Source of the DNA: Pseudomonas sp. Z8(2022)
Lineage (GTDB): Bacteria > Pseudomonadota > Gammaproteobacteria > Pseudomonadales > Pseudomonadaceae
NCBI RefSeq assembly: GCF_025837155.1
Contig: NZ_CP107549.1
Location: forward strand, 3,100,001 to 3,164,000
Direction of reading: 5' to 3'
DNA: 64,000 bases
The position numbers and the translations under genes are program-made. How positions within the stretch are numbered: position 1 is the first letter of the stretch; each line of letters opens with the position of its first letter. The notes under the pieces are model-generated. The model searched no databases and was not told where the DNA came from. It was given only the letters and a program-made list of their open reading frames with translations. Shown in pieces: positions 7,887-33,601 of this stretch.

Positions 7887-8048
7887 GGCGGCCTCCTGTG
7901 ACCGCTGGGACGACGCCGACCGATGTCGGCCTCCGGGATGTTGATCCCTGCGCCATCAGACAACGCCAACCGCCACAGGTGCCATTCACTTCGTCGGCTG
8001 TGACCGACGGCGCAAAACCACTACAGCACAGGGCCATTGCCGCCCCTC

Positions 8049-8063
8049 TGGCATGGCCTTCGC
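8049..8063 (+). promoter_or_regulatory. Candidate sigma-54 promoter of the urea-type binding protein
   Basis: TGGCATGGCCTTCGC has GG and GC separated by exactly ten bases and differs from TGGCACGnnnnTTGC at two positions. Nitrogen-regulated (NtrC) urea operons often use sigma-54, which fits the gene downstream. The predicted start of transcription leaves a leader of about 100 bases. No NtrC site was identified. Confidence 0.3.
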
Positions 8064-8172
8064 TAGCCCAGGCTCGCCGAAAGCCGCGGACTTTCACGGT
8101 GGGAGCAAAGCCCCGGGAACCCGTGCAGCCGGCTGCCAGCTTTCGCGCCTTCGTCCAAAACCCGAGGTATTC

Positions 8173-9234
8173 ATGACCATTCGCTCCCTGCTTATCGCCC
8201 TGCTCTGCGTCTGCCTGCTCGGCACCCCGTCTGCCCTGGCCGCGCCGAAATCCTTCAAGCTTTGCTGGTCGATCTTCGCCGGCTGGATGCCCTGGGGCTA
8301 CGCCGCCGAACAAGGCATCGTGAAGAAGTGGGCGGACAAGTACGGTATCGACATTCAGGTGCAGGAAGTGCCGGATTACGTCGCTTCCATCGAGCGCTAC
8401 ACCGCCGGCCAGTTCGACGCCTGCACCATGACCAACATGGACGCGTTGACCATTCCCGCTGCCGCCGGCAAAGACAGCACTGCGCTGATCATCGGCGACT
8501 TCTCCAACGGAGCCGACGGTGTGCTTCTGCGCGGCAGCGGCAGGAAGATCCAGGATCTGAAGGGCAAGACCGTGCTGCTGGTGGAAAACTCGGTGTCCCA
8601 TTACCTGCTCAGCCGGGCGCTGGAACGGGAGCTGCTGAAAGAAGACGACGTGACCATCCAGCACATCTCCGATACCGAAATCGCCGAGGCCTTCCTCGCC
8701 GGCAAGGGCGATGCGGTGATTACCTGGAACCCGATTCTCTCGGAAATTCGCCGCACAGCCGATGTCAGCCAGGTGTTCAGCTCCAACCTGATTCCCGCCG
8801 AGATCCTCGACCTGACCGTAGTCGACAGCCAGACCCTGGCCAAGCATCCGGAGTTCGGCCGCGCGCTGACCGGTGCCTGGTTCGAGACCCAGCGCCTGCT
8901 GGGCCTGCCTACCGCTGCCGGGCGTGAGGCCAGGGCGAAGATGGCCGCCGCTGCCGAAACCACTCCGGAAGACTTCGAGGCGCAACTCAGTACCCTGCGC
9001 TCGTTCTACTCGCCGCGCTCGGCGCTCAACTTCACCCGCACCGGCAAGCTGCCGGACCTGATGCGACGCGTCGCCCGCTTCGCCGACACGCACGGCCTGC
9101 TGGGCAAAAGCGGCATGGGCCTGACCAATCTGGGTATCTCCTTCACCGGTGAACAAGCCGTCGGCAGCCCGCAGCGCATCCTCCTGCGTTTCAATCACGA
9201 CTATATGAGGCTGGCCGCCGACGGCGCACTCTGA
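8173..9234 (+). CDS. Urea-carboxylase-associated ABC transporter substrate-binding protein
   Basis: This 353-residue exported protein (signal peptide ending ALAAPK) belongs to the NMT1/TauA-like binding proteins linked to urea carboxylase operons. Recognisable pieces are KLCWSIFAGWMPWGYAAEQG near the mature start, QEVPDYVASIERYTAGQFDA, and the C-terminus RFNHDYMRLAADGAL. It would bind urea or a related amide in the periplasm. The expected permease, ATPase and carboxylase genes are missing. Sixteen bases after the stop the sequence becomes the end of urea carboxylase. The gene looks intact but is probably functionally stranded. Confidence 0.78.
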   Translation: MTIRSLLIALLCVCLLGTPSALAAPKSFKLCWSIFAGWMPWGYAAEQGIVKKWADKYGIDIQVQEVPDYVASIERYTAGQFDACTMTNMDALTIPAAAGKDSTALIIGDFSNGADGVLLRGSGRKIQDLKGKTVLLVENSVSHYLLSRALERELLKEDDVTIQHISDTEIAEAFLAGKGDAVITWNPILSEIRRTADVSQVFSSNLIPAEILDLTVVDSQTLAKHPEFGRALTGAWFETQRLLGLPTAAGREARAKMAAAAETTPEDFEAQLSTLRSFYSPRSALNFTRTGKLPDLMRRVARFADTHGLLGKSGMGLTNLGISFTGEQAVGSPQRILLRFNHDYMRLAADGAL

Positions 9235-9666
9235 CGCCCCAGCAGGCGCATCGAGGAGAGCGAACTGGCCCTGGCCGACTACCAGCAGTTCCTCGCTGAC
9301 GAAGCCGAGGGCATCGCCGCCTTCCTCGATCAGCAGCGCACCGCGTTCGCCGCCGAGCGCCAGCGCTGGATCGACTCCGGTCAGGCGCATTTCGAAAGTG
9401 ACGAAGGCGTGACCGAGGTCAGCGAGGACGCGCCGCTCCAGGCCGGCCGGCACAGCGTCGATAGCCATATCGCCGGCAACCTCTGGCAGGTGCAGGTCGA
9501 GGAAGGTGCCAGCGTCGAAGCCGGTGACGTACTGGTGATTCTGGAATCCATGAAAATGGAAATCCCGCTGACTGCGCCGGTCGCCGGTACCGTGCGCGAG
9601 GTTCGCGTACAGCCAGGTTCGCCCGTACGTGCCGGGCAGCGCGTGGTGGTGCTGGAGCAAGCATGA
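9235..9666 (+). pseudogene. C-terminal remnant of urea carboxylase with biotinyl domain
   Basis: The frame directly after the binding-protein stop encodes RIEESELALADYQQFLADEA, then a linker, then a complete biotin-attachment domain with the lysine motif ESMKMEI, ending EQA-stop. This matches the last 140 or so residues of the roughly 1200-residue urea carboxylase. No start codon or ribosome site opens the fragment. A GTG at 9409 could initiate a free 85-residue biotinyl domain. The best reading is a deletion that removed the transporter genes, the carboxylase-associated genes and most of the carboxylase. Confidence 0.85.
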
Positions 9667-9670
9667 AAAA

Positions 9671-9711
9671 GTGCCTCCCATGAGGGCCCGCAGGTCCCCT
9701 GTGGGAGGCAC
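9671..9711. terminator. Hairpin after the urea carboxylase remnant
   Basis: GTGCCTCCCA (9671-9680) and TGGGAGGCAC (9702-9711) form a ten-pair stem with a 21-base loop. On the minus strand it is followed by TTTTT, a good intrinsic terminator. On the plus strand only a weak T-rich tail follows. Confidence 0.6.
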
Positions 9712-9846
9712 TCTGTCCTCATACACCCAGGTCGGGACAACCGGCCATCCGGTCTGAGTTGCATCAAACCTCATTACAGCGCGAACTGGCGCTGTCCCCG
9801 CACAAGCGGATAGCATCACGCCATCAGCCCACCCCCGGATTCATCC

Positions 9847-11313
9847 ATGTCCCTGCGCCCCAAATGGCAAACGCAAACGTCGCTGGTGTTAGTGCTTCTG
9901 TTTCTCCTGGGCAGCGGTTTCCTCACCACTTCACTGCTGAGTTATTACGCCTCACGCGATTCGATTCGCAACAGCATCATCAACACCGAGCTGCCGCTGA
10001 CCTCCGATACCGTCTACTCGGAAATCCAGAAAGACCTGGTACGCCCGACCCTCATCTCCTCGATGATGGCCCGCGATACCTTCCTGCGTGACTGGGTGCT
10101 GGCCGGCGAGCAGGACACCGGGCAGGTGACCCGCTACCTGCGCGAGGTGCAGGAGCACTACGGCGCCTTCACCAGCTTCTTCGTCTCCGACAGGAGCAGC
10201 ACCTACTACCAGGCCAAGGGTGTGCTCAAGCAGGTCAGGCCAGACGCGACGCGTGACATCTGGTATTACCGGGTGCGCGACATGGCCGAGCCTTACGAGA
10301 TCAACGTCGACGTCGACCTGGCCAACGCCGATATCCTGACCATCTTCATCAACTACAAGGTGCTCGACTACGACGGCAACTTCATCGGAGCGACCGGCGT
10401 CGGCCTTGCCGTCGATACGGTGGTCAAGCTGATCGACGACTACCAGCAGCGCTATGAACGCAGCGTCTACTTCGTCGACACCACGGGGCGCATCACCCTC
10501 ACCGGCACCCACGGCGGGCCGCAGGGCGCGCGGGTCGGCGACAGGCTGGCCGACATTCCCGGCCTGGACAACCTGATGGAGAAACTGCCAACCCCGCAGA
10601 GTGGCCAGTTCGAATATCAGCAACAGGGCCGCGAACACTTCCTCAACGTGCGCTATATCCCCGAGCTGGAGTGGTACCTGTTCGTCGACAAGCAGGACAA
10701 GGCGCTGGCCGGCATCCGTCAGGGGCTCTACATCAACCTGCTGCTCTGCCTGCTGGTCACCCTCATCGTTCTCGTGCTGGTAAGCCTGGTATTTCGTCGC
10801 TATCGACAGCGCATCGCCGCACTGGCCACCATCGACAGCCTTACCGAGCTGCCCAACCGCCGCGGTTTCGACATCCTCGCCGAGCAGGCCATGCAGGAGG
10901 CGCAACGCGACAGCAGCCCGCTGTGCGCTGTCATGCTGGACCTGGACCACTTCAAGCAGGTCAATGACCGTCATGGCCACCTGACCGGCGACGATGTGCT
11001 GCGCCGCTTCGCCGATCGCTTGCGCGCTAAGCTGCGTCAGTCCGACATTCTCTGCCGCTGGGGTGGCGAAGAATTCATCCTGCTGCTGAAGAACACCGCC
11101 CTTCACACCGCCCACGAGCTCGCCGAAAAGCTGCGGCAGCATTGCGCCGACCAGCGCTACCCGGTGGGCGGTGAGACATTGCAGGTCACCGTCAGCCTGG
11201 GGCTCAGCCAGTACCAGGCCGGCGAAAGCCTGCACACCCTGCTCGGCCGAACCGACCGCGCCCTGTACCGTGCCAAGCAGGCCGGGCGTAACCGCGTCTG
11301 TGAAGAACACTGA
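9847..11313 (+). CDS. Membrane diguanylate cyclase with periplasmic Cache-type sensor
   Basis: The 488-residue protein has a membrane segment near residues 12-32, a periplasmic sensor of Cache type to about 295 (TIFINYKVLDYDGNFIGATG is characteristic), a second membrane segment (about 300-318) and a C-terminal GGDEF domain. The active-site loop is GGEEF (406-410). An inhibitory RxxD site (RQSD, 397-400) lies five residues before it, so it should make cyclic di-GMP with product inhibition. No EAL domain is present. The ligand is unknown. The stop overlaps the start of the CWC gene by one base. Confidence 0.9.
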   Translation: MSLRPKWQTQTSLVLVLLFLLGSGFLTTSLLSYYASRDSIRNSIINTELPLTSDTVYSEIQKDLVRPTLISSMMARDTFLRDWVLAGEQDTGQVTRYLREVQEHYGAFTSFFVSDRSSTYYQAKGVLKQVRPDATRDIWYYRVRDMAEPYEINVDVDLANADILTIFINYKVLDYDGNFIGATGVGLAVDTVVKLIDDYQQRYERSVYFVDTTGRITLTGTHGGPQGARVGDRLADIPGLDNLMEKLPTPQSGQFEYQQQGREHFLNVRYIPELEWYLFVDKQDKALAGIRQGLYINLLLCLLVTLIVLVLVSLVFRRYRQRIAALATIDSLTELPNRRGFDILAEQAMQEAQRDSSPLCAVMLDLDHFKQVNDRHGHLTGDDVLRRFADRLRAKLRQSDILCRWGGEEFILLLKNTALHTAHELAEKLRQHCADQRYPVGGETLQVTVSLGLSQYQAGESLHTLLGRTDRALYRAKQAGRNRVCEEH

Positions 11314-23318: not shown

Positions 23319-23325
23319 TGAGCCT

Positions 23326-23420
23326 CCCCTCTCCCGCTTGCGGGAGAGGGGCCGGGGGAGAGGGTAAAGCGGTTGTCTACGCCGCCCCCTCTCCCTAGCC
23401 CTCTCCCCAAGGGGAGAGGG
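23326..23420. repeat. CCTCTCCC/GGGAGAGG extragenic palindromes (two hairpins)
   Basis: Two strong hairpins follow the gcvP stop: CCCCTCTCCCGC with GCGGGAGAGGGG (23326-23351), and CCCTCTCCCC with GGGGAGAGGG (23399-23420). The same family recurs after gcvT and upstream of the phosphodiesterase-like gene. Inside the operon it may tune mRNA stability between gcvP and glyA. Confidence 0.8.
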
Positions 23421-33367: not shown

Positions 33368-33601
33368 GTAGTCCGGATGAAATCCGAGGGTATGTTCACA
33401 TAAGAGTGACTGAACACGATCAGTCCCCTCGCCCCTCAGGGGAGAGGGTTAGGGAGAGGGGAAAACGGGCGACCTCGCTATGTTCTGCCCTCTCCCCCAG
33501 CCCCTCTCCCATAAATGGGAGAGGGGAGCTGATCGCGCACAGGTTAAGTGAGTAGCGTCAGGGGCAATTGCAGAAAATGCCCCGGATTGCATCCGGGCTA
33601 C
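33368..33601. repeat. Composite extragenic repeat: two half-REPs flanking CCTCTCCC hairpins
   Basis: GTAGTCCGGATGAAATCCG (33368-33386) and CGGATTGCATCCGGGCTAC (33583-33601) are opposed halves of the element seen at 6.4 kb. Between them lies a CCTCTCCC-type unit whose clearest hairpin is CCCCTCTCCCAT with ATGGGAGAGGGG (33501-33526). It separates the binding-protein gene from the rest of the operon and may reduce downstream expression. Confidence 0.8.

Follow-up and report, generated by a model that had tools for sequence, protein, structure and literature searches.

Probable remains of a recently deleted guanidine-assimilation operon in Pseudomonas sp. Z8(2022)

Introduction

In the chromosome of Pseudomonas sp. 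Z8(2022), a complete gene for the binding protein of an ABC importer is followed within a few bases by the C-terminal end of a carboxylase, which raises the question of what lay between the two and how it came to be lost. The window analyzed here is a stretch of 64,000 nucleotides (bases 3,100,001-3,164,000 of the 4.45-Mb chromosome), from a genome of 4.47 Mb in 2 contigs that is 99.97% complete. Going by the scar locus, the nearest relatives belong to the P. alcaliphila / guguanensis / chengduensis group. P. alcaliphila JCM 10630 (genome G177, guanidine loci L059 and L060) provided, in L059, the main reference for the missing stretch, and the loci of P. guguanensis (L078) and P818 (L080) were compared at the main join. 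A literature search found no published description of this scar.

Results

The window was aligned with intact operons of relatives, and both endpoints of the deletion could be placed (Table 1). Homology to P. guguanensis and P818 extends to 9247 of the window, and homology on the carboxylase side sets in at 9246, leaving an overlap of 2 bp (GC) at the join. Both flanks are colinear with those of relatives, with valine-type catabolic genes upstream and a diguanylate cyclase downstream in P. alcaliphila. In the six relatives read, 10.7-13.3 kb lie between the two retained pieces, the distance from binding protein 1 to the tail being 10,977 bp in G177, 10,722 in G303, 10,978 in G326, 11,040 in G368, 11,262 in G063 and 13,255 in G078. 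The earlier note, made from the letters of the window, had described a deletion scar leaving a binding protein and a carboxylase C-terminus, and colinear flanks with a missing middle bear this out. It was also right that the binding protein ends normally (TGA at 9232-9234) and that carboxylase sequence follows after a short gap in the same frame, but its figure of 16 bases has to be replaced by 11-13, as placed by homology with relatives. The short direct repeats that it suggested looking for at the junction amount to the 2-bp overlap, and no long direct repeat was found there; repeats do exist within the window, with no bearing on the main join. Among the matches listed for 398 genomes (own included), that of the Z8(2022) genome spans the join and none from the 397 other genomes of the genus does; any match across the join would be expected among the highest-ranked of those listed.

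Table 1. Features of the Z8(2022) window and of the two P. alcaliphila loci that correspond to the lost stretches
Feature	Locus	Position	Strand	Evidence or remark
Putative sigma-54-like promoter TGGCATGGCCTTCGCT	Window	8049..8064	+	Pattern match; kept upstream of the lost aptamer
3' remnant of guanidine-I riboswitch	Window	8081..8120	+	BLAST pieces; alignment with 12 relatives; score of 17.9 bits (cut-off 63)
Substrate-binding protein 1, guanidine-type ABC importer	Window	8173..9234	+	Full-length TIGR03427, E 2e-128
Residual intergenic bases and deletion join	Window	9235..9247	+	GC overlap at 9246-9247
Last 139 codons of guanidine carboxylase (linker end and biotinyl domain)	Window	9247..9666	+	TIGR02712 positions 1066-1201 of 1201 (profile search, E 1.3e-36); Pfam Biotin_lipoyl E 3.5e-17; stop codon 9664-9666
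Putative 85-aa free biotinyl domain	Window	9409..9666	+	ORF from GTG 9409; Biotin_lipoyl E 9.3e-18, domain complete
Guanidine-I riboswitches	L059	8932-9032 and 13457-13556		Lost in Z8(2022)
Permease	L059	9217-10032		Lost in Z8(2022)
ATPase	L059	10029-10898		Lost in Z8(2022)
356-aa protein without Pfam match, and 2OG/Fe(II) dioxygenase	L059	11169-13123	-	Lost in Z8(2022)
Binding protein 2 (second TIGR03427)	L059	13625-14692		Lost in Z8(2022)
TIGR03425 and TIGR03424 proteins	L059			Both DUF1989 (PF09347); lost in Z8(2022)
Guanidine-II riboswitch	L059	16462-16509		Right before the carboxylase start (16533); lost in Z8(2022)
Allophanate hydrolase	L171	8141-9964		
Urea carboxylase	L171	9979-13608		
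GntR-like gene	L171	13610-14332		Named by eye

The missing stretch of L059 holds the transporter subunits and the carboxylase-associated genes, in agreement with the earlier reading that these are gone. When the Z8(2022) genome was searched at the DNA level with L059 8700-16700, paralogous or repeat matches came up but no second copy of them, and no cognate permease or ATPase was found in the window past 9234. Also within the missing stretch are carboxylase codons 1-1071 of 1210; relative to P. alcaliphila, 88% of the codons are gone, close to the nine tenths first estimated. An intact carboxylase elsewhere, which would have made the fragment a partial duplication, was likewise not found: the genome has 0 full-length TIGR02712 matches over cut-off, the remaining hits being partial matches to other carboxylases. 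The operon of the relatives carries repeats of ~70-140 bp that are common to many places in the Z8(2022) genome.

The retained binding protein (353 aa) is 88% identical to its P. guguanensis homologue and is the only TIGR03427 protein over cut-off in the genome. If made, it would presumably bind guanidine but be unable to feed a transporter of its own. On the carboxylase side, the biotin carboxylase and carboxyltransferase domains are absent from the gene, and what is left is not a working carboxylase. A close match to the tail (E 1.7e-47 or better) is present in 109 of the 199 genomes of the genus, where it lies in an open frame of at least 1195 codons in 107, 471 in G176 and 143 in Z8(2022). 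The short frame here exceeds chance, since Z8(2022) alone of these genomes has only 143 codons. The 471-codon frame (G176:C1:1473075-1473488) may represent another truncated or frameshifted guanidine carboxylase, and locus L085, although it has the tail, shows no uninterrupted carboxylase frame of 1100-1500 codons.

The earlier note had further proposed that a free biotinyl domain could be expressed from GTG 9409, which is a valine codon of the former gene. The frame contains ESMKMEI, which we take to be the biotinylation motif. GAAGG stands one base upstream of the GTG, a spacing that appears too short for ordinary ribosome binding, and no sigma-70-like promoters or terminators were found in window 7900-9900. 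As judged from these features, expression of the domain is possible but unsupported. Directly past the carboxylase stop is an imperfect inverted repeat (window 9665-9717; 25-nt arms, 76% complementary), terminator or REP-like.

We next consider the substrate of the lost operon, which had been taken for a urea-carboxylase operon. Counting the aptamer before binding protein 1, the intact operon of P. alcaliphila has three guanidine-I riboswitches and one guanidine-II riboswitch. It also encodes two DUF1989 proteins, which we take to be of the carboxyguanidine deiminase type (CgdA/B). As stated in the accessible part of PMC12186494, Asp instead of Asn in the carboxyltransferase active site marks a guanidine carboxylase; the accessible part of PMC5770610 gives no residue number for this site. 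In our alignment only one column, which the tail in the window does not reach, is occupied by Asp in all 12 carboxylases of this type and by Asn in the P. alcaliphila urea carboxylase (residue 705), the one urea carboxylase compared. This column fits the published rule and is a candidate for the published site. The true urea carboxylase of P. alcaliphila adjoins allophanate hydrolase at a separate locus and is 42% identical over the tail, versus 73-89% for the listed guanidine-type tails fetched as loci. Because of the riboswitches, the DUF1989 proteins and the Asp/Asn position of the relatives, we assign the operon to guanidine and reject the urea reading.

A second deletion precedes the retained binding protein. 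Relative to P. alcaliphila, ~111 bp are missing (L059 7496-7606), and with them the first ~78 nt of the 118-nt guanidine-I aptamer; the join falls in 8081-8086, a 6-base overlap that both flanking alignments cover. The same aptamer is kept in all 14 close relatives at 84.2-92.1 bits, ending ~50 bases before binding protein 1. No intact guanidine-I or guanidine-II riboswitch was found in the window at gathering score. Across the Z8(2022) genome, scoring all 106 guanidine-I candidates turned up no riboswitch of that class, and no guanidine-II riboswitch was found among 150 scored of 568 first-look candidates. This loss of most of the binding-protein riboswitch goes beyond those named in the earlier note.

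Upstream of the lost aptamer a putative sigma-54-like site persists, the consensus behind which is presumably that of a sigma-54 promoter. The pattern occurs in 19 of 100 shuffles of the window and is not beyond chance in the window alone, and a looser version has 59 matches across the 575,326 bases of 30 loci. The site draws its weight from positional conservation, since a similar pattern, TGGCA[CT][GA]N4TCGCT, recurs in each of the 14 close relatives between -225 and -241 relative to the start codon. The 115-nt leader of the window folds no better than shuffles (z 1.29), and the leaders of three relatives are also unremarkable (z -0.72, -1.58 and -0.48), so that we make no claim on an expression platform. 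In L071 9600-11600 two terminator-like sites were found; they lie on the minus strand and are no more than chance would give.

A third loss lies ~626 kb from the main scar. Each of the six relatives tested has a protein that passes the cut-off for allophanate hydrolase (TIGR02713); in the Z8(2022) genome none does, and the best match (5.0e-59) falls short of it. Relative to P. alcaliphila, a stretch of 6,359 bp (L171 7862-14220) with the genes for the hydrolase and the urea carboxylase has been replaced by 286 bp at 3,735,698-3,735,983, between flanks that are 92% identical. The alpha subunit of urease is kept. This too is a loss beyond those in the earlier note. The 286-bp replacement (G000:C1:3735698-3735983; L211 1199-1484) adjoins urea transport and urease genes.

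Of 198 other genomes of the genus, 107 have both the tail and allophanate hydrolase and 87 have neither; the tail without the hydrolase is seen in one (G122), and the hydrolase without the tail in three (G003, G012 and G144) (Fisher P 1.9e-51, a statistic that ignores shared descent). From this joint pattern the two appear to be kept or lost together, which fits a pathway with an indispensable last step. At G122:C5:183288-183701, a guanidine-type carboxylase stands without an allophanate hydrolase over cut-off, the sole such case of 108. The nearest relatives of the tail are G147, G248, G393 and G357 (87-88% at the DNA level), in which no copy of binding protein 1 was found in the stretches read, and the nearest relative of binding protein 1 is P. 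guguanensis. Since the two remnants have different nearest relatives, the earlier history of the operon may possibly include some recombination.

Discussion

Three losses are seen in this genome, with an inventory of what is missing, and we consider it very probable that the locus is the scar left by recent deletion of an operon for guanidine assimilation, whose pathway parts were shed by separate losses. The ancestor would have carried binding protein 1, a permease, an ATPase, two genes on the opposite strand, binding protein 2, two DUF1989 proteins and a guanidine carboxylase. A deletion of ~11 kb would then have run from just past binding protein 1 to carboxylase codon 1071, the ends being joined through 2 bp, which is consistent with illegitimate recombination. 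A separate deletion of ~111 bp would have removed most of the aptamer before binding protein 1 and spared the sigma-54-like site, and the third event would have taken the allophanate hydrolase, the likely supplier of the last step in this group, together with the true urea carboxylase. The pathway may have lost its value and its parts may have been shed in any order, with the biotinyl tail as a passive relic.

The scar could also be real and its pieces functional, with the binding protein working for a different permease or for a sensor, controlled by nitrogen but no longer by guanidine, and with the tail acting as a free biotinyl protein; we regard this as unlikely. Both frames are still open, and the tip-branch dN/dS, estimated from pairwise distances for three sequences at a time with a bootstrap interval, was 0.194 (0.126-0.294) for the binding protein, compared to 0.099-0.179 in five other species. 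The tail gave 0.083-0.096, compared to 0.066-0.268 in five intact carboxylases. In the 89 columns that 97% or more of 80 homologues share, the binding protein has one substitution (G209A); L079 likewise has one, and the other 13 of the 14 close relatives have none. These values, and a sigma-54-like site kept where the aptamer is gone, speak for function, but a low dN/dS is equally expected after a recent loss, the binding-protein value is the highest of six branches (with overlapping intervals), 11 residues of this protein are unique among 14 close sequences (L069 likewise has 11 among 13), and the tail is without a promoter or good ribosome site. Relaxed selection on the remnants is, from these comparisons, at most a hint. 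Because both remnants are open without clear relaxation of selection, the operon was probably lost recently. We find it far-fetched that the aptamer deletion was adaptive, replacing gating by nitrogen and guanidine with gating by nitrogen alone, with an orphan binding protein that would serve another permease, a chemoreceptor or a periplasmic guanidine buffer and a biotinyl tail that would be a decoy substrate for biotin ligase.

Loss of a urea-carboxylase operon, as first proposed, takes its appeal from the TIGR02712 and TIGR03427 models, which bear urea names; set against the riboswitches, the DUF1989 genes, the Asp position and a true P. alcaliphila urea carboxylase at another locus with only 42% identity over the tail, it is very unlikely. 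We give hardly any credence to an artefact in which the middle of the operon was dropped in assembly. The repeats in the relatives' operon that are common in this genome can mislead assemblers, but neither they nor the pair of related binding-protein copies were used at the join, where just 2 bp are shared. Two more losses in the same pathway agree, one of them at a different locus, and the assembly is nearly complete in two contigs.

Scars of gene loss in bacteria are familiar as microhomology deletions that leave fused remnants with truncated genes. Unlike such scars in general, the present case combines three separate losses in one pathway with remnants that are still open; it is an ordinary pathway loss, unusually legible. 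A single genome displays the dismantling of a riboswitch-controlled nitrogen pathway, in which sensor, transporter, carboxylase and shared allophanate hydrolase are gone and urease stays. The value of the case lies in these coincident losses and in the correction from urea to guanidine, given that the urea names of the two protein models hide guanidine genes and that a binding protein annotated as 'urea' stands here without a transporter. Z8(2022) also offers a natural negative for guanidine growth tests.

A published E. guguanensis genome is described as carrying this operon in intact form, together with guanidine-I riboswitches (PMC13296017). Z8(2022) has the chromosomal neighborhood, binding protein 1 and carboxylase C-terminus in common with Ectopseudomonas guguanensis G3 (PMC13296017) and P. 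alcaliphila JCM 10630 (L059/L060), whereas the operon of those two is intact and riboswitch-controlled and Z8(2022) has two remnants only. The guanidine carboxylase pathway of Vreelandella boliviensis, as far as the accessible text describes it, has guanidine-I at its start, guanidine-II before the carboxylase, an ABC importer and two deiminase genes (PMC12508155). The P. alcaliphila locus resembles it in riboswitch layout, importer, two deiminase genes, 2OG/Fe(II) dioxygenase and hypothetical protein, but allophanate hydrolase is within the V. boliviensis operon and in the P. alcaliphila group is with urea carboxylase at another locus. Going by its riboswitches, including guanidine-I before binding protein 1, the P. 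alcaliphila operon is of the kind described in the available parts of PMC12186494 and PMC12508155.

Two smaller observations concern the same loci. The dioxygenase and the 356-aa protein of L059, between the ATPase and binding protein 2, are candidate MgdH/MgdL-like proteins for the demethylation of methylguanidine, beyond the halophiles of PMC12508155, and are likened to these by description. Finally, repeats of ~41-44 bp at window 23324-23364 and 33485-33528 are common to a P. alcaliphila intergenic stretch and many places in the genome, and are REP-like by eye.
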